Of a stretch of DNA of 64,000 nucleotides, positions 39,598 through 59,074 are shown in pieces. The notes under the pieces were generated by a model. The model was not told where the DNA came from. It did no database searches and saw nothing but the letters and a program-made list of their open reading frames with translations. A program made the position numbers and the translations under genes. Source of the DNA: Bacteroidota bacterium (GTDB taxonomy: Bacteria; Bacteroidota; Bacteroidia; Cytophagales; Cyclobacteriaceae); NCBI GenBank assembly GCA_018266435.1, contig JAFEAL010000015.1, positions 1 through 64,000 on the forward strand, in the 5' to 3' direction. Within the stretch, counting starts at the first letter, position 1; the number at the start of each line of letters is the position of its first letter.

Positions 39598-41394
39598 CTA
39601 CTTCTTTGCCTTTCGCTGTGCCTCGCTCGTCTTCATCGCTTCTTCTAACTTAGCCATGAATTTTGATTTTTTGGCTGTGCCCGAGGCAGCCTTCTTTCGG
39701 TTTTCATTCATAATGGCCATGATTTTGTCTTCATCCACAAAGCGTTTGATTACGGCCTGTTGGGCAAATGTGATCAGGTTGGAAACAAAATAATAAAAGT
39801 TCAATCCGGCAGAAAACGAGTTGAGCACAAACATAAAAATGACCGGCATAAAGTACCCCATCATTTTCATGGGGCCTTCTACCGAGCTCAACTGGTTATT
39901 CTGCCATTGAAACACAAGCTGCGAGGCGGTCATCAGCAACAAAAACAAACTGACGTGGTCGCCAAAGCCAAACGGTATTTTAAAAGGCAAATGGATGATC
40001 GAGTCATACGTGGATAAATCTTCTGCCCACAAAAAATGCTGTTGCCGTAATTCAATGGCATTTGGAAACAGGTAAAACATGGAGAGGATGATCGGAAACT
40101 GGAGCAGGATAGGAATACAACCACTGAACGGGTTTACCCCGGCTTGCTGGTACAACTTCATCTGGTCTTGCTGTGCTTGCGCCATGTTGTCGCCATTCTT
40201 GGCTTTAATAATATCTAACTCGGGTTTGAGTAAACGCATTTTGGCCTGGCCCAGCATAGAACTGTAGGTGAGCGGGGTGAGCAGCAGTTTCATAAACAAC
40301 ACCAACAAGAAAATAATCAAACCGTAGTTACCAATGAATGATTGTAAAAATTGAAATACCGGGCGCGCCAAATATTGGTTTACCCAAATGACGGGTGGCC
40401 AGCCCAAATACACATTTCGCGAAAAGCCATCGGTTACTTTTCGTAACAGGTCATAGTCATTGGGGCCGAAATAGTAGGTGAACTTTGCCTGGCCGGTAGT
40501 AACTGAGGCAGCCGGAATGGTTAAACTCACTTCGGCTTTTTTTAACAACGATGAATCGGCAGCATCTAAGAAAATAGAAAATGCACCTGAGCTGAAATTA
40601 TTTTTAGCAAGGATAGCACTGACAAAAAATTTCTGCTTGATGGCCACCCACTTCATTGGCTCGCCTATGGTCTTTACATCTGAAGAACTTTCAGAAAGTC
40701 CTTTGAAAGATTGTTGTGTAGTATAGTAATTTATAGTAGTACGGTTGCGGCTGTCGGTGATGTCTTTTTCCTGTAAGGGGATCAGGTCAACCCAATGAAA
40801 AGAAATTTCTTTTTCGTTCAGTCCCAATCCCTGCGACTCAATGGAGTACCCGATTTCATACCCTTTAGCCGGGATGGAATAGATGTGTTTGATAAACGCA
40901 TTGTCAGAAAGCCTGGCTGAGAAAATAACCTGGGTGGAGTCACCCTGCCTGGTAGTTTCAATCCGGTAGTGAAGCTGATACAGGTCAATCGGTTTTCCTT
41001 CGTAGGTGGCCATCAATGAAAAATGATTGTTTTTTCCGTTTGCCAGGAGAAGGGGTTTTTGATGATAGGTTTTGAATTTTTTTAAATTCACTTCGCTTAC
41101 TGTGGCATTGTTGGTAAGCGTGATTTTTAATACATCGTTTTCTGCCGATACAAATTCTTCGGCTCCGATCATAAAAGAACCCAGGCTTCCTAAACTCTTG
41201 ATCAGGGTGGTATCAACTGAAGAAAGAGTTGTTTGACGAGCCGAGTCTTTGGGTGAGGCGGAAGTGGCTGATTGTGCTGGTTTCTGTGCAGTAGTTTGAT
41301 TCTCGACAGGCACCGGTGCCGGACTGAAAAAATAAAAGTACACAAACAACAATACGGCAATGAGTGTGAGGCCTATGGTTGAATTACGATCCAT
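39598..41394 (-). CDS. yidC: Membrane protein insertase YidC
   Basis: 598 residues. After an N-terminal helix (about 5-22) and a large periplasmic beta-supersandwich domain (about 55-350) comes the conserved five-helix insertase core. A cytoplasmic loop (TPLTYSSMLGQAKMRLLKPE, about 373-392) precedes the last helices, and the tail is Lys-rich (AKKSKF...AQRKAKK), as in ribosome-binding YidC tails. It inserts inner-membrane proteins, with SecYEG or alone. Downstream lies the parA upstream region; upstream, 62 bp away, is pyrG. Confidence 0.95.
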   Translation of the reverse strand: MDRNSTIGLTLIAVLLFVYFYFFSPAPVPVENQTTAQKPAQSATSASPKDSARQTTLSSVDTTLIKSLGSLGSFMIGAEEFVSAENDVLKITLTNNATVSEVNLKKFKTYHQKPLLLANGKNNHFSLMATYEGKPIDLYQLHYRIETTRQGDSTQVIFSARLSDNAFIKHIYSIPAKGYEIGYSIESQGLGLNEKEISFHWVDLIPLQEKDITDSRNRTTINYYTTQQSFKGLSESSSDVKTIGEPMKWVAIKQKFFVSAILAKNNFSSGAFSIFLDAADSSLLKKAEVSLTIPAASVTTGQAKFTYYFGPNDYDLLRKVTDGFSRNVYLGWPPVIWVNQYLARPVFQFLQSFIGNYGLIIFLLVLFMKLLLTPLTYSSMLGQAKMRLLKPELDIIKAKNGDNMAQAQQDQMKLYQQAGVNPFSGCIPILLQFPIILSMFYLFPNAIELRQQHFLWAEDLSTYDSIIHLPFKIPFGFGDHVSLFLLLMTASQLVFQWQNNQLSSVEGPMKMMGYFMPVIFMFVLNSFSAGLNFYYFVSNLITFAQQAVIKRFVDEDKIMAIMNENRKKAASGTAKKSKFMAKLEEAMKTSEAQRKAKK

Positions 41395-41456: not shown

Positions 41457-43076
41457 CTATTGCCTGCTGCCTGCTCTTTGTGTCATGGCCGCCTCTACAA
41501 ACTTAACAAACAACGGATGAGGGTTGAGCACAGTACTTCTCAGTTCTGGATGATACTGCACTCCGATAAACCACGGGTGATCTTTTAGTTCGACCACCTC
41601 AACCAAACCCGAATCGGGATTGATGCCTACGGCTTTCAGGCCGGCTTCTTCAATCTGATCCAGGTATTTGTTATTGAATTCGTAGCGGTGGCGGTGGCGT
41701 TCTTTAATCAGGGTTTCTTCATACACATGATGGGCTTTAGATCCTTTTTTCAGTTTGCACTCGTAGGCCCCTAAGCGCATGGTGCCACCCTTGGCGGTGA
41801 TCTTTTTTTGCTCTTCCATCAAATCAATTACCGGGTGTTTGGTTTTTTGATGCAACTCGGTAGTGCTGGCATCTATTTTTAATACATGACGGGCAAATTC
41901 AATCACGGCCATCTGCATGCCGAGGCATATACCAAGAAAAGGTATTTTATTTTCGCGCACGTATCGCACAGCCTCAATTTTTCCTTCCAGTCCCCGCTCG
42001 CCAAAACCCGGTGCTACCAGCACGCCATCTAAACCAGAAAGTACTTCAGCTGCGGTTTCGCGATTGATTTCTTCTGAAGAAATCCACTTCACATTTACTT
42101 TGCAATCGTTTTGCGAACCCGCGTGAATGAATGCTTCAGCTATGGATTTGTAGGCATCGGGTAATGAAACATATTTTCCCACCAACCCGATAGTTACTTC
42201 ATTGGCCGGATTTTTCAGTTTTGATAAAAATGATTTCCATTGTTCCAGTTCAGGTTCTTGCTTGGAAGTCATTTTCAACTTGGTCAGTACTCGTTCATCC
42301 AGTTTTTCTTTGCGCATCAGCATCGGCACATCGTAGATGGTGTCGGCATCAATGGCTTCAATCACTGAGTTGATGTTTACGTTACAGAAGAGAGCAAGTT
42401 TTTTGCGGATGTCCAATGACAGCGGAAGTTCGGTGCGGCACACTAAGATGTCGGGCTGAATTCCGTAAGAGAGAAGTTCTTTAACCGAGTGTTGAGTGGG
42501 TTTGGTTTTTAGTTCTTTGGCGGCCTTTAGGTAGGGGATGAGCGTGAGGTGGATGACCATGGAGTTGTTGGCTCCCAACTCCCAGCGCACCTGCCGCACT
42601 GTCTCTACAAACGGCAACGACTCAATGTCGCCCACCGATCCACCGATTTCAGTAATGATAAAGTCGTACTGACCGGTTTCGCCCAATAAAAATATGTTGC
42701 GTTTGATTTCATCGGTAATGTGCGGAATCACCTGCACAGTCTTACCCAAGTATTCGCCTTTGCGCTCTTTGGTAATGACGTTATTGTAAATGCGACCGGT
42801 GGTAACATTATTGGCCTGACTGGTGCGCACATTTAAAAAACGTTCGTAGTGGCCCAGGTCGAGGTCGGCCTCGGCACCATCATCGGTTACGTAGCACTCC
42901 CCGTGTTCGTAGGGATTGAGCGTGCCGGGGTCGATGTTGATATAGGGATCAAATTTTTGAATGGTAACCGAAAAGCCACGGGACTGTAATAGTTTGCCAA
43001 GCGAAGCAGAGATGATGCCTTTGCCCAGCGAGGAGGTAACACCCCCGGTAACGAATATGTATTTTGCGGATGACAT
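41457..43076 (-). CDS. pyrG: CTP synthase
   Basis: 539 residues, the usual length. The N-terminal synthetase domain starts [17 protein letters not shown] (about 4-20). The C-terminal class I glutaminase domain has the nucleophile Cys in LGICLGMQ (about 384-391) and the HPEL segment (about 517-520). It converts UTP to CTP using glutamine. The start is at 43076; a longer open frame runs upstream to 43096. The -7-type element at 43094-43101 lies 17 bp before the ATG. Confidence 0.97.
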
Positions 43077-43267: not shown

Positions 43268-43340
43268 AAGAATTGTAGGCATTCAATCGGTTACACTTGG
43301 TTGGTTGCCTGAATATAAACCGTTAGAAATACCTAACCTG

Positions 43341-46300
43341 ATGACCGCCTTCAAACCGTTACACCGATTTTTTCAATTTACTATTTACGCCTGCCTTTTT
43401 TTCTTAGGCAGCACCCACTTGTTTGCTCAAACGGCTACTGTAGTCAACATCCCTGGTTGGCCGAGATATGAAAGTTTTGATCAACAGTCGGTATCAGTAT
43501 GGTTTGATGACGGAGCCGGGGGGGCAGTTACGCTAACGGGCACAAGCAGTACGGCTCAGTGGACTGTTACGGTTAATGGAACTCCGGTTACTATTGTTAC
43601 TACTGTCCCGTATACCGGTGCCACCGTCTACCCAATTGTGAGTGGGGCAGCGGCTATTGTGCGGGTAGCTTTTGATGCATCAGTTATTGCCGGTCATCCG
43701 GCCTGGGTGCTACCCGGTGATGTGGTGAAGATCAGTTTTACCAACACAGGGGGCACGTTGAAAACCGGGGGTAGTGGAAACAATGCAGCCAATTTTTCGA
43801 ACATCACCTGTAAAAACAACTATACACCAACTTGCGCAGATGTTAATTTTTTAAGTTATGGAACTGCCAGTTCGCCCATTCAATGTGCTCCGGTAGATAC
43901 CAAATTCTGGCGCTGGACCTACCGCTACTCGTTGCGGTGGCGCAACAGTTCTAAGTTTGTTATAGGTAATGAAAACTTGGTAGTTCAGTGGAATAACCCG
44001 GCAGCCACAGTCAGCAATTTAAAAGCCTGGTACTCTGATGCAGGGGGTACAACGTGGTACTCGAATGTTATATTAAGTAATTCTGCTTCCACAACATCAA
44101 GCGCTTACGCGCCCGCGGCCAATCCGTATCCTGAAATATTTCTTACTTACCGTAGCAGTTTTAATCCGGCTACAGGAGTATTAGATGGCACCAATTCTTT
44201 TATTTACCCAAAGGGTTCGGGGTTGTGCAATTTCAATGCGATTTCTTACCCGTTCAACCCAACTTATTTTGGGTGTAATGTGGGACAAAACCTAAAAAGC
44301 CAGGAGTTTATTTCTAACGATTGGGATAACCAAAACCCGGGTGTACTTAACTCGGCAGATATTCCACCTACCGGAGTAGGAGGATTCACCACTACTGATC
44401 AGGTGTGTTTAGGAACAAACGTGGGGGCACAGTTTAGTGATGCTTCCACCTTTAACTGTATGGGTAACGGAACAACCCTGCCTGTACCTACACAAGGAGC
44501 TTATACGGGCCCGGTAAACAATGCGCAGCGCTGGGTAAGGATCATTTATGGAGGCCAAAACTCGAGTGTTCCGGCCAATAATATTCCCAATATTGTAGTA
44601 AACGGTTTTGCAGTAACCGGGGCAGCGGGTGCACTAAATGCTTCGTTGGTTGGTAACCCTGCCATATCTAATGCTTATAACCTTGCACCACCCGTCAATA
44701 CTCCTCCGGTTCCTGCCACAGTCAATGGTTACGTGGTAACCGGTGCAGGCGGACCGGGTGTGCCAGATGCAAACGGAGTAATTCAACTTAATGTACCGGC
44801 AAATGCCACCACTTCAGGTTTAATTAGCCAGTTGATCACTACGTCATCCCCATTAGGTCAGGTGGTGGGGCAGAAATTTTACATAACCATTCAATACTGG
44901 AACGCTTGTAACCCGTACCCGGGCAATAATCCTGTTGAATATACAGGTACAGTTGCCGGGCAGTATGTACAAATTGTTACCGCCCCTGCTCCTTTGGCCT
45001 CAACTGGCCGGGCGGTTTGTTACGATGGTACGAATAATATCAGTGCCATTAATTTTACTACAACCAGTTCAATCGGAGGATCAAGGCTAGGAGTTAACTG
45101 GTACAAATCTAATCCACAAACCGGTGGTACGGCCATGACCAACCCCAATGGAACTAATAGTTTAACCTTTCCGGCTAATAGATATACCTCCAGGGGGGGC
45201 ATTGGCACGTTTGCCGTCAATAATAGCAACGGAGGGTACTATTCACTTTGGGCTACACAGACGGCAGCATCAGGGTCATCTACTTGCGAAAGTACCCCAG
45301 TAGAAGTGGTAATCTTTCAGCAACCCAACATAGGAACCAATACACCGAGCATTACCAGCGGCCCGACAGATGTGTGTAACAACACTACGCAGGCGTACAC
45401 CTCATCAGCTCCGACTACACCTAAAACATTACCGGTTAATACATTTACCAATACCGGTATTGCACCGGAGAACGGGGCGATCAATTTTATAACCGATGAT
45501 TTTTGGTCTCAGGGATTTGGAGCGCAGGTATCGCTCTCTGCCACACAGGGCACGTCAACCAATGCCACATTTAGTTTGTCGCCACAGCCGGCAACTTTTA
45601 CTAATAATAATATTACAGTTAATCTACAATACACGGGTAGCCCTGTAGTAAACGTAAATACCCCGGTTACTTCACCTGCACCGCCACCGCCTCTTCCGGC
45701 TAACTACAGCATCACCCCTCAAACTAATTGCCCTAACAACAATACCAATGTTTCAGTAAATGTATGGGGGGTGAGCAATGGAGGCTCGATCAGCGTGCCG
45801 TCACAAACAATTTGCGAAGGAACCAACCCGGCTGCGGTGAGCGTTTCCGGCATAAGGGGTAACGTGCAGAACTGGCAAATGCAGGTAAATGGAGGTGGAT
45901 TTTCAACTAATGCGGCATTGGGTACCGGTAATACCGCAACCATTAGTGCCGCTACGGTACCGATTGTGGGTGGAGCACAGACTACGTATCAGTTTTATGC
46001 TGTAGTAAAAAATGGACCGGTTTGTACACCTGCCAATAGTCCCACGGCAACAATCATTGTTAATCCGCGTCCAACCAATGCAGTTCTTTCGGGAACCACT
46101 ACTATTTGTAAAGGTAATTCAACAAACCTAACGGTAGCAATAACCGGTGGGGTCAGTACTTATTCCGTAGTGTATAATGACGGATCAGGAAATATTACTG
46201 TAAACGGGTATGTATCAGGCAGCAATATTCCGGTGAGCCCTTCTGTGAATACTACTTATACATTGGTATCCGTGACGGATGCCAACGGATGTACTTCGGC

Positions 46301-49300
46301 TGCCGTTAGCGGTACGGCTACTGTTACGGTTCGTAATCTATCGGCTGTACTTTCATCAACCGGCCCCACTTCGCTTTGCCCCGCTCCGGTGCCCGGCAAC
46401 TCTACAACAATTGCATTTACCGTTACAGATAACAATGGTAACGCATTAACTACTTACAATGTAAATTATCAGGATAACCTTGCAAACCTTTACAACACTG
46501 GTGCAGGCTATGTAAGCGGCAGCAATGTTACTCTTAGCAACATAGTTTCATCGAGAACTTTTTCGATCACCAATATTACCGATCCGCTGGGTTGTACGAC
46601 TAATCCTAATACAGGTAGTGTGGCCATCACGGTAGGGAGTGCCCCTTCTTCTGCTACTTTCAGTGGTGGAGGCTCGGTTTGTTTAAATGGATCATTAAAT
46701 CTGAAACTGGTCATTTCTGGAGGTGTCTCTCCATACCAGGTTACTATCCCCGGCATAAACGGTGGCAGCCCGTTTGCCTACACCAGTGGCAACCCGATAG
46801 CTGTGCCCACTTCCAGTACCGGAACGATAAACTACTCAGCCACAGTAATAACTGATGCCTGCGGGGCTCCTTTACCCTTGGCAAGCATTTCAGGAAATCC
46901 TCAATCGGTAACCGTCAATCCGTTGCCTGTTGCCAACAATTCAATTGCTGCTGTGGTGTGCTCTCAAACTAATCTCAACATCAATACCTCTGCCAATATT
47001 ACCAATGGCGTAGCGAGCACATTTGCCTGGACAGCAGCCTACACGGGTGGAATGACAGGCCCGGCCAGTGGTACAGGAAATATCACCGGAGTGGTGGTCA
47101 ACAAAACATCGGCTGTACAAACGGCTACCTTTACAGTTACTCCCACTTCTGTTACCGGGTCTTGCCCCGGGGCAAACTTTACGATTACACAAACCGTAAA
47201 TCCGGAGCCGGTTTCGGCCAATCAAACGCTGACTGCTCTTTGCTCTCCGGCAACCGTAACCATCAATCCACAAACTCAAGGTGTTAACCAGCCAGGCGGC
47301 AATAATATAGCTAGCACATTTACCTGGACAGGCAGCTACGGAGCCCTGACGGGAGGAGTGGCCAGTGGAAGCGGAAACATTACCGGGTTTGCACTAACCA
47401 ATTCAACAGGAGCCGCTATCAATGCTGTTTTCACGGTAACACCAACGGCTAATACCGGATCTTGTGTCGGTTCTAATTTTACGATCACGCTTCCGGTTAA
47501 TCCATTGGCTAATATTTCAAGTCAGCCAGTAAATGACACCAAATGCTCTGGGCAAAACTCTTCATTCTCAGTAACGGCTACCGGGCCAGGCTTGTCATAC
47601 CAATGGCAGGTAAGTACCGATGGTGGCGCTACCTGGAGTAATCTTTCTAACGGAGCGCCTTACAGTAATGTAACCACTTCAACTCTTAACCTTACGGGAG
47701 TAACGGTTGCATTGAATGCCTACCAATATCGGTGCGTAGTGACTACGCTGACCAACGGAGTTTCGTGCCCCGCTAATACAACTGCAGCAACGCTCACGGT
47801 AAATCCGTTGCCTACGTCAACTGATCCGCTGCCTCAACTTTGTGAGGATGTGTATTTAGGAGGTTCGCATGCTAATGTTGACTTAACAAGCTATAATGCA
47901 TCAGTTACCAATGCACCCACAGTGGCTTGGTATAATGATGCCGGGCACACCAGTTCGGTGGGCACACCTACCAGTGTTACGGTAACCAATGGTAAGGTTT
48001 ATTATTTTGTAGCTACCTCAGCGGCTACGTGTATTAACACAGGCACACTTACGTTCACCGTGAACCCGTTGCCACAAGCAGTAACTAAAAATTATTCGTA
48101 TTGCGAAGATCACAGCGGGGCAACCCCCATTCCGCCACACAGTAATTCACATGCCGGTATTGATTTGACTTCATACAACACCACGATAGCGGGAGGTTCG
48201 ATGAGTAATCGTTCGGTAGCCTGGTATTCTGATGCAGCACTGACTACATTGATTCCTTCACCCAATAATTATACCCTGGCACCGGTACTTCCGGCCACTA
48301 CGATAACTGTTTATGCAAAAGTAACCAACACCGTAACAGGCTGTACCAATTCAGCAAATGTTAATCTGACGATTCTTCCCAGGCCGATTGATAACCCGAT
48401 CTCTGGAAATGCTTCGGTATGTACCGGTACGAGTACTATTTTGTACCAGGTTGACCCGACACTCAATATTGGATCAAATTATACCTGGAGCGTGGTGGGC
48501 ACTCCCCCCTCAGATGTTACTTTATTTGCAGGTGGAGGAACGAATTCATCCAACTTTTTTGTGCTGCTCCGATTTCCATCGGCTACCGGTACCGTTGCTC
48601 TCAGTGTATTTGAAACGTTGAACGGGTGCTCTGGTAATACGCAGAATATGACAATCAATGTCAACTCGGCACCCAGTGCTAACACCATTAATGGAGTTAC
48701 TCAGGTATGTACCAACCAAACAGCAGTACCGTATGCAGTAGCTTCTCCCAATGTGACCTCAAATTATACATGGACTGTTTCACCCGATGCATCAAATGCA
48801 GGATCTGTAACCGCTAACGGAAGTGCGATCAATGTCAATTTTGGTGTGATTAGCCCAGTAACCATTACAGTAGTTGAAACGGCCTCATCCGGTTGTGTGG
48901 GTGCACCCGCAAATATTGGCGTAACAGTTAACCCTCGACCAGCCATGACTTCGGCTACGACTGCCTCGGTGTGCAGCGGGCAAGTTCCTTCGCTGGTGTT
49001 CACCTCCAATATTGCCAGTACGTATGCGTGGACAGTGACCAATATTACCGGTGGGATCACAGGGGTAACTAATGGACAATCAGGTAACGGAGACTTATCC
49101 AGCACATTTACTGCCGGAGTCTTACGCAATAAATCAGGCGCTGTTGGATCGGTAACATTTAATGTTACTCCCACCGCCTCAGCGGCTCCCAACTGCCAGG
49201 GTACTACGCAAAGTGTTGTGCTCACAGTAAACCCTGAACCCGTTTTGGTCAACCCTCAAACAGCAACCATCTGCAGTGGCTCTGCAGTGAATTATACCAT

Positions 49301-52300
49301 TCAGTTGAATCCCCTTAATCTGCCTCCGGGAACGGTGTACAGTTGGCCTTTGCCCACCATGTCTGATGCAAGCGTGCAAGGTTCGGCAGTTACCAGTATG
49401 AATGTGCCTATTACGGATGTATTGAACAACACTTCGTCAGGTACGATCACGGCTACGTATGCAGTTACTCCGGTAAGTGGTGGCGGGTGTACCGGTGCTA
49501 CACAAAATGTGGTGGTTACGGTCAATCCTCAGCCGGCCATGAATGCGGTGAACACTCAACAATGTAGTGGTACCGCTATAGGAGTGTCGTTTACCAAAAC
49601 AGCCGGATCGCCAATCATCAATAACTATAACATTACATCGGTCATTGTGCCGGGTGGGTTGGTGGCTTCTGGAAGCAATGCGGTAATTCCGGCTAATGGG
49701 GTTAGTGCAACCTACATTTCGAATGATTCTTACCTGAACACCACGCTTAATCCGCTGATTGTTCAATACACAGTTGTTCCAACAACCAGTGCGGGATGTT
49801 TGGGGAGCCCGACATCAGTTAATATTACAATCAACCCTCAGCCTTCGCTTTCAGCCACATTAGATAAAACCTTGTGCAGTGAGCTAGCAACCGGTCTGAC
49901 GCTGAGTACCATTGCCGGGTCAGTTCCGGCTACGGGCTATAACATCACAGGTATTACCATAGCTCCGGGATTAGTGGCAGGCGGAAGCAATGCGGTTGTG
50001 CCGGCATCCAATGTAGCTCCCGGTTATTTGGCCAGTGATCAATTTACGAATACGGGAAACGCACCTTTAACGGTAGTATATCAGGTAGTTCCGGTAAGCG
50101 CATTAGGCTGTAATGGTAATCCACCCAAGTCCATAACGATGACCATTCTTCCTGAGCCAGTAGTGGCAAATGGATTAAGTGGTTCGAAGTGCAGCGGAAT
50201 TGCTACCGGACTGACATTGAATACCAATGGTACCTCAGTGGCTGCAGCAAACTATAATATTACCACCCGAACAATTGCTCCGGGGCTTGTGGCCAGCGGT
50301 GCAAATGCAGTTGTTCCCGCTGCAGGTGTACCGGCCTCTTACTTAGCAGGAGATGTCTTTACTAATACCACCAGTGCTGCATTGGCAGTGACGTATACCG
50401 TTGTTCCAATCAGTGCTTCGCCTTGTACTGGTCAACCTAAGATAATTACTATTACCATTAACCCGGAGCCGGTGATGTCTCCGGCAGGCACGTCCCCGGT
50501 ATGTAGCCGGGCGGCCATCGGTCTTGCATTAAATACCAATGGTACTTCTGTAGGTGCAGCTAGTTACAACATCACAGCACGTTCTATTTCGGCCGGGCTA
50601 ACTCCCAATGTGGCCAATGCGGCTGTTCCCGCATCTGCTGTACCTAGCAATTATTTAGCGGCTGATGTGTACACCAACACAGGTGCAAATCCATTGACAG
50701 TTACTTATACAGTTGTTCCCGTTGGATCAATAGGTGGTTGTTTGGGTCAATCTCAAACCATTATTGTGACAATCAACCCTGAACCGGTGATGTCATCTTC
50801 GTTAGATGGTACAGTCTGCAGCATTGTACCTATTGGGTTGACTTTGAATACGAATGGGTCATCGGTAGCAGCCAATACTTACAACATTACAGCTATTTCT
50901 GTTGACGGTGGGTTGACTCCCGGGAGCAATGCAGTTGTTCCGGCAAGCAATGTAGCGGCCGGCTACCTGACCAATGACACCTACACCAATACAGGCACGG
51001 TACCGTTAAATGTAGTGTATACCGTGGTGCCGGTAAGTGGAGCCGGTTGCTCAGGCAATCCATTAAACATTACACTTAAGGTAAACCCAATGCCCATTGT
51101 ATCAAACGGCCTGAATAAAGCGGCCTGTAGTGGTGCGGCAGTTGGTCTTACCTTAAACACCAACGGTGTATCGGTAGCGGCCGCAAATTATAATATCAGT
51201 TCAGTATCAGTTGATCCGGGTTTAACAGCAGGTGGAGGTAACGCAGTGATCCCGGCCAACAATGTGGCTACCACCTATTTGCTTAATGATAAATACACCA
51301 ATACCGGAAATACTTCTTTGCCGGTTGTCTATACGGTAGTGCCAATTAGTGCCGCGGGTTGCCCGGGGCCTTCTCAAACCATTACGATAACCATCAATCC
51401 CGAGCCTGTTGTTTCCGGTTCATTGGGTAATTCTGTATGCAGCAGTACGACCATCGGGCTTCTATTAAATACTAACGGGTCTTCTGTGGCCGCTGCGAAT
51501 TATAATATCACAGGCAGAACAGTAGCGGGAGGACTTACTCCTAAAGGCACCAATGTTACCGTTCCGGCTTCTGCTGTAGCTGCCAATTATTTAGCCGGGG
51601 ATATATACACCAACACAACAACGTTACCACTGAATGTAACTTATACAGCCGTTGCCGTGAGTGGTGCCGGATGTGTGGGCCAACCGGTTACGATAACTAT
51701 CGTGATTAATCCCGAACCGGTACTATCTAATGGTTTGAACGCTACCCTTTGCAGCAGTACAGCTACTGGCTTGACGTTGGCTACCAATGGCACATCTGTG
51801 GGAGCTGCAAGTTATAATGTGACCAACATTTCACTTTCTCCCGGACTGACCGCAAGCGGGGGTAATGCCGTGATCCCATCAACGGGAGTAGCTAATAATT
51901 ACCTTGCCAATGACCAATTTATTAATGTCACATCCAATGCATTAACGGCCACCTACTCGATTGTACCAGTCAGTGCTTCGGGTTGTGTTGGTGCACCAGT
52001 TAATGTGGTGATGACCATTAATCCTCAGCCGGTTGTTTCATCATTATTAAACAATACCGTGTGCAGTGATGTGGCTACGGGGCTGACATTAAGCACTAAT
52101 GGAACATCAGTTGCTGCACTGAATTACAACATCACAGTTCGAACCATTGCTCCGGGGTTGGTACCTGCCGGAGCCAATGCCACAGTACCCGCCACCGGGG
52201 TAGCGGCATCGTATTTGTCGGCCGATAAATTTAATAACATTACAACCGCGCCACTTAATGTTGCCTATACCGTGGTGCCGGTTAGTGGAGCTAATTGTGC

Positions 52301-55300
52301 GGGCACCCCGATGACCATCACCATTACGATTAATCCTAAACCCGTATTAAATGTTTCACCGGTTACACAATGCAGTGGTGTGGCTACAGGTTTGTTATTA
52401 GCCACCAGTGCGTCATCGGTAACGGCTCAGAATTATAACATTACGGCTATCTCTATCCCACCCGGATTGACCGCAGACGGAACGAATGCCGTAGTGCCTG
52501 CCTCCGGTGTTAATGCCAATTATTTAGCTGGTGATGATTTCACGAATACAGGTGCTGGTGATTTAACCGTTACATATACCGTGGTGCCGGTAAGTTCATT
52601 AGGTTGTGCCGGTCAATCGATGCCCATAGGTGTCACCATTCATCCACAACCGGTTGTGGCTACTACCCTCAACAATACATTGTGCAGTCGTTCTCCGGTT
52701 AATTTAGTTTTGGCAACCAATGGTACCTCAGTGGCCGCAGCGAATTATAACATAACGGCTATCAGTATCCAGGCAGGTTTAGTGGCCGGGGGATCAAATG
52801 CAGCTGTTCCGGCAACAGGAGTTGTGAGTACCTACTTACAAAATGATACCTATACCAACACCACCAACTCTGCCCTTACAGTTTCTTATACGGTAGTTCC
52901 GGTAAGTGCAGCCGGTTGTTTGGGTAATCCGCAGGTTATCACTATGACGATTAATGCGGAGCCTGTTGTTTCTACTTTTCTCAATAATACGGTATGCAGT
53001 CAGGCAAACATCGGGTTGACTCTGAACACAAATGGTTCATCTGCATCAGCCGCTAACTATTCTATTACAGCAAGAAACATTACTGCCGGGTTAACTCCAT
53101 CACCGTCTAACGTAATTGTACCGGCTACGAATGTGGCAGCAAGTTATCTGGCATTGGATAAATACACCAATACAGGTGGGGTTGCACTTTCTGTGACGTA
53201 TACCGTTGTGCCATTTAGTGCAGCAGGTTGCCAGGGGCAGCCCCAGATAATCACGATCATGATTAATCCTGAGCCGGTGATTCCGACCCTGGATGCCCCC
53301 GTTTGCAGCAGCGTGGCTACCGGATTGCTACTGACTACCAACGGTACGTCTGTAGCAGCAACGAGTTACAACATTGTTTCAATTACTGTAGGGGGTACAT
53401 TGGTAGCAGCCGGAGGAAATGCGGTTGTACCGGCTACGGGTGTTGCCGCTAGTTATTTAGCATCTGATGTTTTTAAAAACATAGATAATTTTTCACAAAC
53501 AGTAACGTATGTTGTTGCTCCTATGAGTGGAGCTTCATGCCTGGGTGGAAATAAAACCATTACGCTCACGATTAACCCCGAACCTGTGGGTAATAATTTC
53601 ACTGATCCGCAATGCGCTACCACATTAAATCACAGCATTGTATCTCAAATCACCAATGGTGTTAATTCTGTGTTTACCTATACTGTGGCCACTAATAACC
53701 CCGGGGTTCCACCGGCTGCCAATAGAACCGTTGCTTCAGCTGCTAACATCACTGATAACTATGTTAATAACACAGGTAGTCCGGCAACTCTTACCTACAC
53801 GATTACGCCCTTTAGTTCTGTCAACAATTGTCAGGGGCAACCATTCAATTATATTGTCGTCATTAATCCAACACCTGTTGGAGCCAATAATACACAGGCG
53901 GCTCTTTGTTCGCATAATGCCTTTACCATTAATCCACAATCTCAAATTACTAATGGGGTAACAGCTACGTTTGCCTGGACAGCCGTGTACGATGCCGGTT
54001 TAACCGGTGGTACAGGAACAGGTTCTGGCAATATTGCGGATAATCTGACCAACTTAACCGGTGCGGCACTGAATGCAACGTACACCATTACCCCGAGTGC
54101 AGGGCCATGTTCAGGTACAACATTTACGATTATCCAGCCTATCAATCCGGAGCCGGTGATGGATCCTACACTCTCACCTAAAACAATTTGCAGTAATAAT
54201 GCTACGTCACCTAATCCAACCAACATTGTACTAAATACAAATGGTACTTCGGTAGCTGCAACATCTTACAATGTGTCACTGGTAAGCCAAGATGCCGGGT
54301 TGACCGGTTCGCCCACCACAGGTACTACACTGGGTGCAAATGCTATTAAAAATGATGTGTACAACAATGTAGGCCCGGTTTCATTGAAAGTAGTATATCA
54401 AATTATTCCCAAATCGGCAGCCGGTTGTACGGGCGCACCTTTCAATATTTCAGTTACGGTAAATCCTGAACCGGTAGTGGCCGCATTGAGCAACACAGTT
54501 TGCAGCCGTGATGTTTCCAATGTGTTACTCACAACCAATGGTACATCCATAGGGGCATTAAACTATCAGTTGAAAGCGGTTACAGTTCCGGGAACGATTA
54601 CCGCCAATCCTTCAAATACGGTGGTGGGAACGACCAGTGGAGTTTCGCTGATCAAAAATGATTCCTACACCAATACAACCAGCGGAGCGGTAACAGTAAC
54701 ATATAGTATTCTGGGCATCAGTGCATCGGGTTGTCAGGGGCTTGCCCAAACCATTTTGGTTACAATAAACCCCGAGCCTATTATGGTACCCGGGTTGGCC
54801 ACGGTATGTAGCAATGTAGCTTCTGGGGTGGTGCTTGGGCCAGCTGGAGGGTCGGCTGCTATATCACAGTATAACCTGAACCAGATTCTGACACCCGGAG
54901 GATTGACTCCGGCCGGTACAAATGTGGGATTAGGTACGTACTCAACTAATAATTTTTTAGCCAACGATGTATTTACCAATACAACCAACTCTCCGTTAAA
55001 TGTAGTTTATACGATTGTTCCGGTTACGGCCAGTTTATGTAAAGGCTTATCACAGACTGTAACGCTTACGGTTAACCCGGCACCGGCCTTGGCAGGCTTA
55101 AATACTACGGTTTGTTCAACCAGCGCTACCAATGTAGTATTTGCCACCACGCCCACCAGTGTGCCTGCGGCCAGCCCGAATGGGTATAACATTACCAACA
55201 TCGTCATTCAGGCTGGGCTTACTCAAACAGCTGGAAATACGGGATCACCAAGAAATGGGGTCACCAGTTCGGAAATTCAAGGAGATAAATTTACCAATTC

Positions 55301-58025
55301 AACCAACGGTACATTAACAGTAACGTACACAGTTGCACCGGTATCAACAGGAGGTTGTGTTGGCCCGACAGGAAACATTGTGGTAACAGTTGAGCCAACG
55401 ATTAAAGCTACGGTAGTGCCTGCTTCATTGACACAGAGTATTTGCAGTAATACCCAGACCAATATCGCGTTGAGTTCACCAACTATTCCTTCAACAGGAG
55501 CAGCTTCCATTTCATTTAGTTACACAGCTACCTCGAGCCTTGGAGGTTCTATTTCAGGATTTATTCCTGCGGTAAGCAATCTTCCACCCGGAACGATTAC
55601 CGATAATCTTGTCAATACGGCAAACAACGCGGGTACGGTTACTTATGCAATCACAGCAGTTTCCAATGGCGCAGCAGGCGGATCCGGATGCTCCAGCCAG
55701 GCAGTCAATTTTGTTGTGACCGTGGATCCGTTGCCCAAACTTATAGCCACTCCGTTGATTCAAACCGTTTGCTCTCAGGTACCGAGCAACGTAGTGTTGA
55801 CTTCACCTACAAACCCATCGGCCGGAACGATTCGGTTTAATGTGATCAGTTCTACACCCACAGGCGGAATGGTGCAAACGGCTCCTGCAGTTCCTGCTGC
55901 TTTCTATACCGTGGGTCAATCAATTAAAGACGCATGGAATAACACTACTGTATCCCAGCAAACCGTAGCGTATGTATTGCAGCCCGTGGTCAATGGCGGT
56001 TTAGGTTGTGTAGGAAATAACACCAGCATCACCCTGAATGTAAATCCGTTGCCGGTTCTTACGGCTACTTCGCAAGCACCTATTTGCAGCGACAGTACTG
56101 TAAATATTTCGTTATCATCAAATGTGATTGGAACGATAAACACATGGACTACATCTATTGCACCTTTGGGCTCTGTGCTTGGCGCAGGAGGAGGATCGGG
56201 CGATCTTATCATGCAATCGCTGCGAAACACCGGAAGCGTTCCGTCAACTGTTACCTATACCATTACACCCAAGGCAGCAAATTGTACGAACACCCCCGTG
56301 GTGGTTAATGTAACGGTTAATCCAACCCCTACTATTTTGGCTTTGCCCGCAACACAAGTAGTTTGTTATGGTGCACCCTTGAATATACCGTTAACAAGTG
56401 CGGTAACGGGAGTGAACTATGCCTGGACGGTTGATCCTAATAATTCGGGAGTTCCTCTATCCGGATCGGCCTCCGGAGCGGGTGCTAACTCTTCGGCAGC
56501 AATAAGTATAGCGGCAGTAAGCGACACTTTAAGTTTTTCATCCGATAGTTTTGGCTACTACATTACGCCTACTGGTCCGGCACCTACGTTTTGCCCGGGC
56601 TTGCAAAAAACGGTAAACATTCAGGCTGGAGCTCAATTGAAGGCGAAATTTTTAAATGATCCGGTCAATAATATTTGTGCAGGCACGAAAGACTTTTTGC
56701 AGGTGCAGTTAAATGGCCAGGCTCCATTTACATTAGTTTATAATGACGGAAGTAATGTGACACTAACCAAGGTATCTAATTTTAAAGCTATACCGATTAG
56801 CCCTACCACTAATACTACGTATAACTTAGTGTCCATGAAAGACAACTTAGGGTGCCCTCAATCATTGACTGGCCAAGTCATCTACAATGTGTTTCCTCAA
56901 TTAACGGCAGCGTTTACAGTGGGTACAGTTCCACAGTTTTCAGGCGGAAATTCTACAGTTACGTTTACCAATACCTCTACTCCGCAAGATGCTGCTCAGT
57001 ACAGTTATGTGTGGAATTTTGGCGTAGATTCAGCACCGGATTCAGTTAATAACATAGGCCCCAATTTCTCCGTCAATTATTCCTCACCGGGAAGAAAAAT
57101 AATATCACTGACAGTTACGAACTTATCACCCAATGCGGCAGGGCTTTCTTGCTCTGCTAAGATGACCACTCAAACCATTAATATTCTGGTGGCACCTGTT
57201 GTGGCAGCATTTCAAGCAACACCTCCTGCTGCATGTTTCCCCTCATCGTTGACGGTTACACAAAATACTTCGGGTGGAGATGAAAGCAATTGGCAGGTAA
57301 CTGATAAGAATAATAATATTGTTGGCCAGTCCACGGCACCACTTCCGGTATTCACGATTACACAACCCGGTGAATACTATATATCGCTCACGGCCGTGTA
57401 TTCAAAAACAGGCCAACATAATACGTTGGTGCAAGGACCATTCATAGTGTACGATAAACCGCAGGCTGTATTTTTGGCAAATCCACCCACGGTTTATGTG
57501 CCCGATACTCCAATGAAGTTAATCAACAACAGTTTTGGTGCAACTGAATTTAATTGGGATTTTGGAGATGGAAATAATTCAACCGACTTTGAACCAACGT
57601 ATACCTATAAGTTCCCCGGAGTATTTACGATTTCACTCATTGCATCGAACGACCACGGGGGTGGTATCATCTGCCGCGATACATCACAACAAAAAATACT
57701 GGCCAAACAAGGTGGGGTGGCTAAAATACCCAACGCGTTTACTCCCAGCACAGCCGGCCCGAGCGGAGGCATATCCGGTGGTACCAATGATGCCAATAAT
57801 TATATTTTCTTGCCTCAGGTAAAAGGTGTGGAAGAATTCAACCTACAGATTTATGATCGTTGGGGTAATCTTATTTTTGAAAGCAATAATCAAACGGTGG
57901 GTTGGGATGGCTATGACCAAAATGGCAGGCTGATGCATGCGGGTGTGTATGTGTATAAGCTTACCCTTCGGTTGTCAGATCAACAGCGAACTACACAAGT
58001 GGGTGACGTTACTTTGATCCGTTAA
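43341..58025 (+). CDS. Giant SprB-like repeat adhesin with gliding-type (CHU_C) T9SS type B C-terminus
   Basis: 4894 residues from the ATG at 43341. The frame opens at a TTG at 43305, but the signal peptide (1-30, ending HLFAQ) begins at 43341. Order: a unique N-terminal region (about 31-800), Ig/PKD-like units (about 800-2060), thirteen contiguous repeats of about 104 residues (2065-3414), two Ig-like units, four diverged relatives of the repeat (3605-4018), more Ig-like units, PKD-like domains with WDFGDG (about 4510-4780), and a gliding motility-associated C-terminal domain (about 4796-4893, with PNAFTP, YDRWGN, GWDG and GVYVYKL). Type B domains of this kind direct T9SS export in SprB, the cell-surface gliding adhesin of Flavobacterium johnsoniae. 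The PorP/SprF-family gene follows 20 bp later, as with sprB-sprF. Role in gliding or attachment is inferred. Confidence 0.88.
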   Translation: MTAFKPLHRFFQFTIYACLFFLGSTHLFAQTATVVNIPGWPRYESFDQQSVSVWFDDGAGGAVTLTGTSSTAQWTVTVNGTPVTIVTTVPYTGATVYPIVSGAAAIVRVAFDASVIAGHPAWVLPGDVVKISFTNTGGTLKTGGSGNNAANFSNITCKNNYTPTCADVNFLSYGTASSPIQCAPVDTKFWRWTYRYSLRWRNSSKFVIGNENLVVQWNNPAATVSNLKAWYSDAGGTTWYSNVILSNSASTTSSAYAPAANPYPEIFLTYRSSFNPATGVLDGTNSFIYPKGSGLCNFNAISYPFNPTYFGCNVGQNLKSQEFISNDWDNQNPGVLNSADIPPTGVGGFTTTDQVCLGTNVGAQFSDASTFNCMGNGTTLPVPTQGAYTGPVNNAQRWVRIIYGGQNSSVPANNIPNIVVNGFAVTGAAGALNASLVGNPAISNAYNLAPPVNTPPVPATVNGYVVTGAGGPGVPDANGVIQLNVPANATTSGLISQLITTSSPLGQVVGQKFYITIQYWNACNPYPGNNPVEYTGTVAGQYVQIVTAPAPLASTGRAVCYDGTNNISAINFTTTSSIGGSRLGVNWYKSNPQTGGTAMTNPNGTNSLTFPANRYTSRGGIGTFAVNNSNGGYYSLWATQTAASGSSTCESTPVEVVIFQQPNIGTNTPSITSGPTDVCNNTTQAYTSSAPTTPKTLPVNTFTNTGIAPENGAINFITDDFWSQGFGAQVSLSATQGTSTNATFSLSPQPATFTNNNITVNLQYTGSPVVNVNTPVTSPAPPPPLPANYSITPQTNCPNNNTNVSVNVWGVSNGGSISVPSQTICEGTNPAAVSVSGIRGNVQNWQMQVNGGGFSTNAALGTGNTATISAATVPIVGGAQTTYQFYAVVKNGPVCTPANSPTATIIVNPRPTNAVLSGTTTICKGNSTNLTVAITGGVSTYSVVYNDGSGNITVNGYVSGSNIPVSPSVNTTYTLVSVTDANGCTSAAVSGTATVTVRNLSAVLSSTGPTSLCPAPVPGNSTTIAFTVTDNNGNALTTYNVNYQDNLANLYNTGAGYVSGSNVTLSNIVSSRTFSITNITDPLGCTTNPNTGSVAITVGSAPSSATFSGGGSVCLNGSLNLKLVISGGVSPYQVTIPGINGGSPFAYTSGNPIAVPTSSTGTINYSATVITDACGAPLPLASISGNPQSVTVNPLPVANNSIAAVVCSQTNLNINTSANITNGVASTFAWTAAYTGGMTGPASGTGNITGVVVNKTSAVQTATFTVTPTSVTGSCPGANFTITQTVNPEPVSANQTLTALCSPATVTINPQTQGVNQPGGNNIASTFTWTGSYGALTGGVASGSGNITGFALTNSTGAAINAVFTVTPTANTGSCVGSNFTITLPVNPLANISSQPVNDTKCSGQNSSFSVTATGPGLSYQWQVSTDGGATWSNLSNGAPYSNVTTSTLNLTGVTVALNAYQYRCVVTTLTNGVSCPANTTAATLTVNPLPTSTDPLPQLCEDVYLGGSHANVDLTSYNASVTNAPTVAWYNDAGHTSSVGTPTSVTVTNGKVYYFVATSAATCINTGTLTFTVNPLPQAVTKNYSYCEDHSGATPIPPHSNSHAGIDLTSYNTTIAGGSMSNRSVAWYSDAALTTLIPSPNNYTLAPVLPATTITVYAKVTNTVTGCTNSANVNLTILPRPIDNPISGNASVCTGTSTILYQVDPTLNIGSNYTWSVVGTPPSDVTLFAGGGTNSSNFFVLLRFPSATGTVALSVFETLNGCSGNTQNMTINVNSAPSANTINGVTQVCTNQTAVPYAVASPNVTSNYTWTVSPDASNAGSVTANGSAINVNFGVISPVTITVVETASSGCVGAPANIGVTVNPRPAMTSATTASVCSGQVPSLVFTSNIASTYAWTVTNITGGITGVTNGQSGNGDLSSTFTAGVLRNKSGAVGSVTFNVTPTASAAPNCQGTTQSVVLTVNPEPVLVNPQTATICSGSAVNYTIQLNPLNLPPGTVYSWPLPTMSDASVQGSAVTSMNVPITDVLNNTSSGTITATYAVTPVSGGGCTGATQNVVVTVNPQPAMNAVNTQQCSGTAIGVSFTKTAGSPIINNYNITSVIVPGGLVASGSNAVIPANGVSATYISNDSYLNTTLNPLIVQYTVVPTTSAGCLGSPTSVNITINPQPSLSATLDKTLCSELATGLTLSTIAGSVPATGYNITGITIAPGLVAGGSNAVVPASNVAPGYLASDQFTNTGNAPLTVVYQVVPVSALGCNGNPPKSITMTILPEPVVANGLSGSKCSGIATGLTLNTNGTSVAAANYNITTRTIAPGLVASGANAVVPAAGVPASYLAGDVFTNTTSAALAVTYTVVPISASPCTGQPKIITITINPEPVMSPAGTSPVCSRAAIGLALNTNGTSVGAASYNITARSISAGLTPNVANAAVPASAVPSNYLAADVYTNTGANPLTVTYTVVPVGSIGGCLGQSQTIIVTINPEPVMSSSLDGTVCSIVPIGLTLNTNGSSVAANTYNITAISVDGGLTPGSNAVVPASNVAAGYLTNDTYTNTGTVPLNVVYTVVPVSGAGCSGNPLNITLKVNPMPIVSNGLNKAACSGAAVGLTLNTNGVSVAAANYNISSVSVDPGLTAGGGNAVIPANNVATTYLLNDKYTNTGNTSLPVVYTVVPISAAGCPGPSQTITITINPEPVVSGSLGNSVCSSTTIGLLLNTNGSSVAAANYNITGRTVAGGLTPKGTNVTVPASAVAANYLAGDIYTNTTTLPLNVTYTAVAVSGAGCVGQPVTITIVINPEPVLSNGLNATLCSSTATGLTLATNGTSVGAASYNVTNISLSPGLTASGGNAVIPSTGVANNYLANDQFINVTSNALTATYSIVPVSASGCVGAPVNVVMTINPQPVVSSLLNNTVCSDVATGLTLSTNGTSVAALNYNITVRTIAPGLVPAGANATVPATGVAASYLSADKFNNITTAPLNVAYTVVPVSGANCAGTPMTITITINPKPVLNVSPVTQCSGVATGLLLATSASSVTAQNYNITAISIPPGLTADGTNAVVPASGVNANYLAGDDFTNTGAGDLTVTYTVVPVSSLGCAGQSMPIGVTIHPQPVVATTLNNTLCSRSPVNLVLATNGTSVAAANYNITAISIQAGLVAGGSNAAVPATGVVSTYLQNDTYTNTTNSALTVSYTVVPVSAAGCLGNPQVITMTINAEPVVSTFLNNTVCSQANIGLTLNTNGSSASAANYSITARNITAGLTPSPSNVIVPATNVAASYLALDKYTNTGGVALSVTYTVVPFSAAGCQGQPQIITIMINPEPVIPTLDAPVCSSVATGLLLTTNGTSVAATSYNIVSITVGGTLVAAGGNAVVPATGVAASYLASDVFKNIDNFSQTVTYVVAPMSGASCLGGNKTITLTINPEPVGNNFTDPQCATTLNHSIVSQITNGVNSVFTYTVATNNPGVPPAANRTVASAANITDNYVNNTGSPATLTYTITPFSSVNNCQGQPFNYIVVINPTPVGANNTQAALCSHNAFTINPQSQITNGVTATFAWTAVYDAGLTGGTGTGSGNIADNLTNLTGAALNATYTITPSAGPCSGTTFTIIQPINPEPVMDPTLSPKTICSNNATSPNPTNIVLNTNGTSVAATSYNVSLVSQDAGLTGSPTTGTTLGANAIKNDVYNNVGPVSLKVVYQIIPKSAAGCTGAPFNISVTVNPEPVVAALSNTVCSRDVSNVLLTTNGTSIGALNYQLKAVTVPGTITANPSNTVVGTTSGVSLIKNDSYTNTTSGAVTVTYSILGISASGCQGLAQTILVTINPEPIMVPGLATVCSNVASGVVLGPAGGSAAISQYNLNQILTPGGLTPAGTNVGLGTYSTNNFLANDVFTNTTNSPLNVVYTIVPVTASLCKGLSQTVTLTVNPAPALAGLNTTVCSTSATNVVFATTPTSVPAASPNGYNITNIVIQAGLTQTAGNTGSPRNGVTSSEIQGDKFTNSTNGTLTVTYTVAPVSTGGCVGPTGNIVVTVEPTIKATVVPASLTQSICSNTQTNIALSSPTIPSTGAASISFSYTATSSLGGSISGFIPAVSNLPPGTITDNLVNTANNAGTVTYAITAVSNGAAGGSGCSSQAVNFVVTVDPLPKLIATPLIQTVCSQVPSNVVLTSPTNPSAGTIRFNVISSTPTGGMVQTAPAVPAAFYTVGQSIKDAWNNTTVSQQTVAYVLQPVVNGGLGCVGNNTSITLNVNPLPVLTATSQAPICSDSTVNISLSSNVIGTINTWTTSIAPLGSVLGAGGGSGDLIMQSLRNTGSVPSTVTYTITPKAANCTNTPVVVNVTVNPTPTILALPATQVVCYGAPLNIPLTSAVTGVNYAWTVDPNNSGVPLSGSASGAGANSSAAISIAAVSDTLSFSSDSFGYYITPTGPAPTFCPGLQKTVNIQAGAQLKAKFLNDPVNNICAGTKDFLQVQLNGQAPFTLVYNDGSNVTLTKVSNFKAIPISPTTNTTYNLVSMKDNLGCPQSLTGQVIYNVFPQLTAAFTVGTVPQFSGGNSTVTFTNTSTPQDAAQYSYVWNFGVDSAPDSVNNIGPNFSVNYSSPGRKIISLTVTNLSPNAAGLSCSAKMTTQTINILVAPVVAAFQATPPAACFPSSLTVTQNTSGGDESNWQVTDKNNNIVGQSTAPLPVFTITQPGEYYISLTAVYSKTGQHNTLVQGPFIVYDKPQAVFLANPPTVYVPDTPMKLINNSFGATEFNWDFGDGNNSTDFEPTYTYKFPGVFTISLIASNDHGGGIICRDTSQQKILAKQGGVAKIPNAFTPSTAGPSGGISGGTNDANNYIFLPQVKGVEEFNLQIYDRWGNLIFESNNQTVGWDGYDQNGRLMHAGVYVYKLTLRLSDQQRTTQVGDVTLIR
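49533..53582 (+). repeat. Thirteen tandem protein repeats of about 104 residues (312 bp)
   Basis: The region covers 4050 bp in frame, so 13 units average 312 bp. Each unit opens with PV(V/M/L) and a CS motif near residue 12, continues with GLTLNTNGTSVAAANYNIT, GLxxxGxNAVVPA and NYLAxDxYTNT, and ends with VTYTVVPVSAxGCxGxP and ITINPEP. The Cys pair (near positions 12 and 90) is present in essentially every unit, which suggests an internal disulfide or a paired link. At DNA level the copies are diverged (only short stretches such as ACCAATGGTACCTCAGTGGC are shared between units 3 and 11), so the array looks old rather than freshly expanded. Confidence 0.85.
54153..55394 (+). repeat. Four diverged copies of the adhesin repeat
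   Basis: Four units (1242 bp) keep the opening CS motif, the TNGTS or TPTS region, the (Y/F)TN(T/S)T strand, VTYT and the second Cys. They have lost much of the internal NAVVPA motif and vary in length. They follow two Ig-like units of another type (53583-54152), which suggests insertion or shuffling inside the array. Confidence 0.7.
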
Positions 58026-58045
58026 AAGCTATTATATTTGAGAAG

Positions 58046-59074
58046 ATGAAAAGTATTTGGGTCGTATTTTGTATTTGTGTCAGCTCTTTTGCAGCATCTG
58101 CTCAAGATCCTCAATTCTCTCAATACTATCAGGCACCGTTATACCTCAATCCCGGTTTTACCGGCATCACACCTCAGCAAAGATTGGTGGTGAATAACCG
58201 CATTCAGTGGCCCAACCTTCCGCAGGCTTTTAATACATTCATGGCGAGCTATGATATCTGGGTAGATGAACTGAGAAGCGGGTTTGGGGTAATAGCCAGT
58301 ACGGATAAAATGGGATCGGCCGGGTGGCGCACCACTACCTTTGGTTTAACCTACAGTTACAAAGTAAGGCTGAATGAAAAGATTGTCTTTTCACCCGGGC
58401 TTTATTTTGGCTATGGTATGAATGGACTTGATCGTTCAAAACTTATACTGGGCGATCAGCTTACGTATGGCGCTGCTGGTTCTCTTGATCCGGCTTTACA
58501 AAAATTGGGAAACCAGCAATATTTTGATTTTGGATCTGGTTTTCTGTTGTATAGTAAAACACTTTGGTTTGGCGCGTCTTTCAGCCATATGAACCAGCCG
58601 AATGTTTCGGTATTAAATGAGGTGGACAGGCTGGGAATGAAAACGACTATCCATTTTGGTGCGAGATTAAATTTAATGAACGGCTTGCGCTCGCCCGATC
58701 GCCCTTCTTACCTCACACCCTCATTTGTTTTCCGCAATCAGTCGGGGATTACCCAGATGGATGTGGGAATCAATTATCACGTAGATCCTGTTTCGATTGG
58801 CTTTTGGTATAGAGGCAAGCCTTACCAGAAAAGTGTGATTGGTTCTGTGCAGCAAGATGCTGTCATCTTCTTACTGGGAATCTATCTTAAGGATTTTACG
58901 ATTGGGTATAGCTATGATTTTACTATTTCTCCGCTGGCTACTTCGGCTGGAGGTGCACATGAAATATCGCTTATTTACGAATTTGCAGCCAAGCCTCTGC
59001 ATCGAGGAGTGAAGAAACGCAATCGCCTGATTCCTTGCCCCACGTTTAATAACAAACCGGGTTTCTGGAACTAG
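58046..59074 (+). CDS. PorP/SprF-family type IX secretion membrane protein
   Basis: 342 residues. The signal peptide (1-19, ending AASAQ) is followed by the family opening DPQFSQYYQAPLYLNPGFTG (20-39), then an outer-membrane barrel with alternating strands. PorP/SprF proteins act at the outer membrane in T9SS export; SprF is needed for SprB display, and other members pair with their own type B cargo. It lies 20 bp after the giant adhesin stop, so it is most likely its dedicated export partner. The C-terminal Lys/Arg-rich tail ends at Asn342. Confidence 0.92.
   Translation: MKSIWVVFCICVSSFAASAQDPQFSQYYQAPLYLNPGFTGITPQQRLVVNNRIQWPNLPQAFNTFMASYDIWVDELRSGFGVIASTDKMGSAGWRTTTFGLTYSYKVRLNEKIVFSPGLYFGYGMNGLDRSKLILGDQLTYGAAGSLDPALQKLGNQQYFDFGSGFLLYSKTLWFGASFSHMNQPNVSVLNEVDRLGMKTTIHFGARLNLMNGLRSPDRPSYLTPSFVFRNQSGITQMDVGINYHVDPVSIGFWYRGKPYQKSVIGSVQQDAVIFLLGIYLKDFTIGYSYDFTISPLATSAGGAHEISLIYEFAAKPLHRGVKKRNRLIPCPTFNNKPGFWN

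Follow-up and report, generated by a model that had tools for sequence, protein, structure and literature searches.

A giant repeat protein with a type B sorting domain, encoded directly before a gene of the PorP/SprF family, raises the question of what such a pair does: whether it serves attachment or gliding, and how its carrier would be coupled to the machinery that moves adhesins. We analyzed a pair of this kind in a window of 64,000 nucleotides (the whole stretch of DNA analyzed, positions 1 to 64,000 of contig JAFEAL010000015.1 of a Cyclobacteriaceae bacterium), the features of which are collected in Table 1. Judging from sequence, we give a probability of roughly 0.72 to the reading that the pair is an adhesin module for gliding, driven by the track through a one-cysteine hook.

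Table 1. Features of the adhesin-carrier pair and its flanks in the window.
Feature	Positions	Strand	Basis or remark
Giant type B adhesin, 4894 aa	43341..58025	+	ATG start; 14 orthologous frames in relatives
30 PKD_5-like repeats, residues 1192-4429	46914..56627	+	Own profile search and Pfam PKD_5
CHU_C / type B T9SS C-terminal sorting domain	57780..58004	+	PF13585, 48.8 bits (cut-off 27)
PorP/SprF-family carrier, 342 aa, predicted 14-strand outer-membrane barrel with disordered C-tail	58046..59074	+	Pfam, NCBIfam, AlphaFold2
Ile-Pro-Cys-Pro codons (Cys331), proposed one-cysteine track hook	59030..59041	+	Motif starts 14 codons before the stop
CTP synthase (pyrG), divergent neighbour, flank marking the position of the pair	41457..43076	-	
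yidC, next divergent neighbour, flank	39598..41394	-	

The adhesin and its carrier

The preliminary description of this locus had claimed a repeat protein of 4894 residues with a CHU_C end, a repeat type unlike that of SprB, and a PorP/SprF gene placed 20 bp 3′ of the adhesin gene in the sprB-sprF order. The first claim was borne out by the ORF and a Pfam CHU_C score over the cut-off, the second by a Pfam scan without SprB repeats, and the third by the ORFs and the profile scores of the carrier. An alternative TTG start at 43305 would extend the adhesin ORF to 43305-58025 (4906 aa). The N-terminus carries a probable signal peptide, judged by eye, and the N-terminal quarter of the protein lies outside the repeat profile. 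The Pfam scan detected PKD_5 (1e-175) in 27 stretches, against about 30 PKD_5-like domains by our own profile. According to that profile search, the repeats are mostly spaced by 89-110 aa, and 29 of the 30 contain exactly two Cys residues, so that each repeat probably forms one internal disulfide. The families listed in the scan were PKD_5, PKD_4, PKD_6, CHU_C and one sub-threshold Ig-like match, with the SprB repeat absent. The adhesin thus has PKD_5-like repeats in place of the SprB repeats that SprB of F. johnsoniae presumably has. The NCBIfam type B model TIGR04131 scored 31.8 bits, below its cut-off of 35, and the adhesin would therefore be missed by TIGR04131 alone. The window also holds a second large PKD_5 repeat protein (3-7538, + strand), whose 5′ end lies outside the window. 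Its end matched Por_Secre_tail with 26.5 bits (cut-off 27), and it is probably a type A T9SS cargo.

The carrier matched Pfam PorP_SprF with 206 bits (cut-off 22.3) and the NCBIfam PorP family TIGR03519 with 244.9 (cut-off 90.55). Its gene is separated from the adhesin gene by 20 bp on the same (+) strand. The gene after it encodes a DUF4159 protein on the opposite strand, and no PorE-like gene follows the pair. An AlphaFold2 model of the carrier, built from 34 sequences, predicted 14 strands, the last of which ends at residue 315; this model is weak, with a mean pLDDT of 68.3, a pTM of 0.67, and pLDDT below 50 for residues 320-342. Foldseek with the model returned porins, FadL and T9SS translocon chains among the 50 matches listed, with TM-scores of 0.29-0.51 by query length; these matches back the predicted barrel fold and nothing more specific. 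A PDB sequence search with the carrier at E 0.1 found no relative. Outer-membrane barrels with an even number of strands have both termini on one side, usually the periplasm. The even number predicted here would accordingly place both carrier ends on one side, and the periplasm is where a hook would have to be.

Conservation of the locus

The nearest named records were MAGs labelled Bacteroidetes, Cyclobacteriaceae, Flammeovirgaceae or Cytophagales. Of 25 orthologous loci, 24 had the C-terminal domain of an adhesin encoded ahead of PorP, at a distance of 17-94 bp; the remaining one (L055) begins within the PorP gene, so that this order could not show. Chance is thus excluded as the source of the pair. 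An assembly artefact was also rejected, since the same locus is present in relatives. Uninterrupted orthologous adhesin frames were found in 14 relatives and measured 2795-5628 codons from stop to stop. By one profile, these frames carried 4 to 33 repeats, compared with 30 in the window protein. As read from the sequences compared, stalk length varies freely between species, while the sorting domain, the carrier and the hook are constant. One relative's adhesin (L101:4845-18881) contains two identical repeats, where neighbouring repeats average 56% identity, which suggests a recent stalk expansion.

The flanking genes were compared in 17 relative loci, one of which (L099) ends within the adhesin, two (L104 and L105) are truncated at their start by a contig edge, and one (L092) stops before yidC could appear; pyrG was present as in the window in 13 and yidC in 12. 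Neither gene was found in L097. A second pair, made up of an adhesin frame of 1243-1280 aa and a second IPCP PorP, lies directly behind the first in L099, L104 and L105, forming a four-gene cluster. Its counterpart in the window's genome is on a separate contig (L019).

Secretion and gliding genes in the genome

The genome comprises 3.48 Mb in 24 contigs and is estimated to be 100% complete. A check for T9SS core genes, which had been proposed for this locus, found SprA, GldK, GldL, GldM and PorG over their cut-offs and GldN slightly under. SprA had one match in the genome (2286.5 bits). The NCBIfam scores were 431.4 bits for GldK (cut-off 350), 245.3 for GldL, 251.3 for GldM, 195.7 for PorG (NF052316, cut-off 130) and 81.5 for GldN, just below the threshold of its model (85.9). 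The gene order PorP-gldK-gldL-gldM-gldN is present, as is GldB. GldJ scored 574.8 bits with TIGR03530 (cut-off 382.9) and 324.4 with the longer model TIGR03524, under its cut-off of 458.2. The preliminary description had further proposed a self-contained T9SS module of cargo and partner. The cargo-partner pair stands, in a genome with SprA, GldB, GldJ-GldN and PorG, but its self-containment does not. With one match for SprA, one for GldK and one for GldJ, the idea of the pair as a self-contained system was rejected, because it would depend on the single SprA of the genome and on shared track proteins.

The whole genome gave five PorP matches and ten CHU_C matches, nine of the latter over the cut-off. 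Three of the five PorP genes lie directly after a CHU_C gene (those of the window, L019 and L020), one (L017) is divergent to such a gene, and one (L018) belongs to the gldK gene order. The PorP at L017:4715-11154 ends in IPCPKF, and the CHU_C protein divergent to it has 1732 aa. PorPs with a Cys-Pro end resembling that of L017 were gldJ-linked in 14 of the loci surveyed below.

The tail cysteine of the carrier

The C-terminal sequence of the carrier is NRLIPCPTFNNKPGFWN. A tail Cys was present in 120 of 120 carrier homologs among the matches listed (of 2190, query included), within IPCP in 119 and LPCP in one. In every one of these 120, it was the only Cys past residue 25. Cys-X-Cys is absent from the carrier tail, the same listed homologs all having one tail Cys. 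A DNA scan of the whole genome found 32 sites able to encode IPCP versus 16 for the reversed pattern. All 32 were checked; five were in frame in ORFs longer than 100 aa, and four of the five were C-terminal tails, the fifth being internal. The four ORFs with this tail encode the window PorP, the L019 PorP, the L017 PorP and PorG.

PorG belongs to a Pfam and NCBIfam family different from PorP. Among the 120 PorG homologs listed of 1632 matches, 119 contained a Cys within 22 residues of the C-terminus (IPCP in 70, IPCA in 46, and three others), and the lone homolog without it was shorter and evidently incomplete. Across the class, PorG tails differ in wording; all 30 of those read contain a Cys (a PorG match was obtained in 51 of 60 genomes). 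Beside PorG in locus L086, on the same strand, there is a 371-aa frame of a cysteine-free DUF6089 relative.

That adhesins are linked to a moving track by a disulfide was described for F. johnsoniae in November 2025 (PMC12635249). There, SprF and PorG are each disulfide-bonded via a Cys-X-Cys tail to Cys343 of GldK (Liu et al. 2025, PMC12635249). In the same study, the SprF cysteines are required for sustained adhesin movement and dispensable for SprB export; type A export strictly requires Cys343 of GldK, and SprB export is increased by it; and in SprF without the first Cys of the pair, a minority is bonded and gliding on agar is abolished, with some adhesins still moving. The PorG-reactive residue of Porphyromonas gingivalis PorK is Cys356, within Arg-Gly-Cys-Phe (PMC12635249). 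The GldK of our genome has cysteines at positions 18, 25 (lipobox, judged by eye), 240, 284 and 358, and Cys240, within KGCMLANFKP, aligns with PorK Cys356. A class survey found the motif Gly-Cys-[FML]-Leu at the partner site in 15 of 15 GldK frames and 0 of 15 GldJ frames, two of the latter being short or incomplete. By sequence, then, the carrier and PorG, whose counterparts form the bonds in F. johnsoniae, here have a one-Cys tail in common, and the GldK partner Cys is kept.

Comparison with known systems

The pair as such is of an already known kind, namely a type B cargo with a dedicated carrier. It resembles SprB-SprF of F. johnsoniae in having a type B adhesin followed by a PorP/SprF carrier, a Cys-bearing tail, the GldK partner Cys and GldJ, but differs in the single tail Cys (IPCP) of its carrier, against the Cys-X-Cys of SprF. 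Type B cargoes of F. johnsoniae include mobile and static ones, and the mobile ones were noted not to be encoded with a PorE-like gene (Paillat et al. 2025, PMC12618676). Fjoh_4750 is a mobile cargo and Fjoh_3952 a static one. The substrate/shuttle pairs described there likewise have a dedicated carrier encoded beside the cargo; unlike our pair, static cargo is tied to an adjoining PorE-like gene, and the excerpted text mentions no tail cysteine. The disulfide between PorG and GldK or PorK (PMC12635249) is comparable in that PorG here ends in the IPCP of the carriers and P. gingivalis PorG has a single tail Cys; however, PorG is a T9SS component and the window protein an adhesin carrier. The PorP-PorE-PG1035 complex of P. 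gingivalis (PMC9143113) also has a type B protein anchored by a barrel of the PorP type, but includes PorE, in contrast to the absence of a PorE-like gene after our pair. What is new here is that the tails of the carrier and PorG look like the recently described track hook in a version with one Cys. Searches of open-licence PMC papers for the tail cysteine gave nothing beyond PMC12635249, and no paper on a one-cysteine tail in PorP carriers.

Proposed mechanism

SprA would export the 4894-aa adhesin through its type B domain. By analogy with SprB/SprF, the adjoining PorP, as its dedicated outer-membrane carrier, would retain the exported adhesin. The Cys in the IPCP of the periplasmic C-tail would then form a disulfide with GldK Cys240, and the moving GldJ/GldK/GldN track would drag the adhesin along the cell, pushing the cell over the surface. 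PorG, having the same IPCP tail, would bind the same GldK Cys240, as in F. johnsoniae. Because one Cys in place of Cys-X-Cys leaves no internal disulfide donor, the bond would depend on a different oxidant and should be less easily reversed. The result of removing the first Cys in F. johnsoniae implies that a lone cysteine may be less effective or require a further oxidant.

Survey of PorP tails across the class

The survey covered 100 PorP loci from 18 genomes, chosen among the matches listed for 20 genomes: all listed matches were used for some genomes, one each for G182 and G173, and none for G178 and G158. One locus (L205) was dropped, having no PorP frame near its centre, which left 99 PorP genes. 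Tail Cys residues were scored on the last 16 residues. The original scoring used the last 24, and the change was made after the data had been seen, because barrel-strand cysteines fell within the last 24 residues of gldK-linked PorPs. A tail Cys was found in 14 of 14 gldJ-linked PorPs, all with Cys-Pro, and in 0 of 15 gldK-linked ones (Fisher p = 1.3e-8, uncorrected for kinship). It was also present in 14 of 51 PorPs with a CHU_C gene upstream and in 10 of 19 without an adhesin or gldJ neighbour. Tails with Cys-X-Cys or Cys-X-X-Cys numbered four, all in genome G204 (three CHU_C-linked, one without such a neighbour).

A tree was built from the 99 surveyed PorPs and the five of our genome, with the tails removed beforehand. 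Its fully supported split separated the side of the window PorP, where 33 of 38 members were hooked, from the other side, where 8 of 66 were. All 16 gldK-linked PorPs fell on the latter side. Hooked members occurred on both sides of the main split, and the tail state changed at least 10 times on the tree. Thus, inheritance accounts for part of the hook's distribution, and renewed gain or loss for the rest.

Should the hook be a mark of mobility, carriers that have it are expected to lack peptidoglycan-anchoring partners. Among the 51 CHU_C-linked carriers, 20 were counted as anchored, 16 by a PorE-like gene following the carrier gene (a single BLAST cluster) and four by a fused end. Hooked were 3 of the 20 carriers with an anchoring partner and 11 of the 31 without (p = 0.20), a trend in the expected direction that was not significant. 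An earlier count with a wider partner definition gave 3 of 23 versus 11 of 28 (p = 0.058). Five members of the PorE-like cluster were scanned; OmpA was over the Pfam cut-off in one and PD40 in two more, and two hooked exceptions (L225 and L286), with frames incomplete at the sequence edge, gave sub-threshold matches only.

Alternative explanations and wider meaning

Whether the pair serves attachment or gliding had been left open, and the tail Cys of the carrier, so far as sequence can indicate, favours track-driven gliding. We counted against the gliding module the effect of removing the first SprF Cys in F. johnsoniae, the single-Cys tails on PorPs without an adhesin or gldJ beside them, the lack of significance in anchor avoidance, and the sub-cut-off scores of TIGR04131 and GldN. 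A static attachment adhesin, held at the surface by a carrier whose tail Cys bonds, for example, another envelope protein or a second carrier, is unlikely, though it is the strongest competitor. Some type B cargoes of F. johnsoniae are indeed static (PMC12618676), and the hook occurs all the same in 3 of the 16 CHU_C-linked carriers that are followed by a PorE-like gene; however, the gene following our pair is the oppositely oriented DUF4159 gene and no PorE-like one, PorG ends in the same IPCP, and GldK keeps the partner Cys. It is quite improbable that the link between carrier and track through the tail Cys serves mainly export, in a PorG-like role with adhesin movement as a by-product. The motif held in common with PorG and the export functions of GldK Cys343 would fit this role (PMC12635249), but the SprF cysteines are dispensable for SprB export in the same source, and gldK-linked PorPs had no tail Cys in 15 of 15 cases. 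Finally, an inherited or chance likeness of the IPCP tails with no common partner is very improbable: the match covers only four residues and PorP proteins have a common ancestry, but PorG comes from another family, four of the five in-frame IPCP sites in the genome (ORFs longer than 100 aa) are tails of just these proteins, and the tail state changed at least 10 times, hooked members being found on either side of the main split.

Beyond the gliding module itself, we lean slightly towards a broader reading. A single Cys in a short C-terminal motif (IPCP or CPxF) may be a general hook, repeatedly gained and lost, that, throughout the class, chains barrels of at least two families (PorP and PorG) to the GldK track and tells track-driven from static carriers, the Cys-X-Cys of F. 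johnsoniae being a lineage-specific elaboration and not the rule. If the one-Cys tail does the same job, the disulfide track mechanism would reach well beyond F. johnsoniae in a simpler form, and the twin-cysteine donor step would not be universal. A genomic signature of four residues would then predict which PorP-carried adhesins move and which stay, and the assignment of type B cargoes to gliding would become directly testable.

The four fused-end carriers among the 51 were L214 and L295, with SPOR over the cut-off, L222, with SPOR just under it (20.6 versus 21), and L274, with OmpA over the cut-off. An OmpA domain fused to PorP was also observed in L279. These SPOR or OmpA fusions are possibly built-in peptidoglycan anchors.
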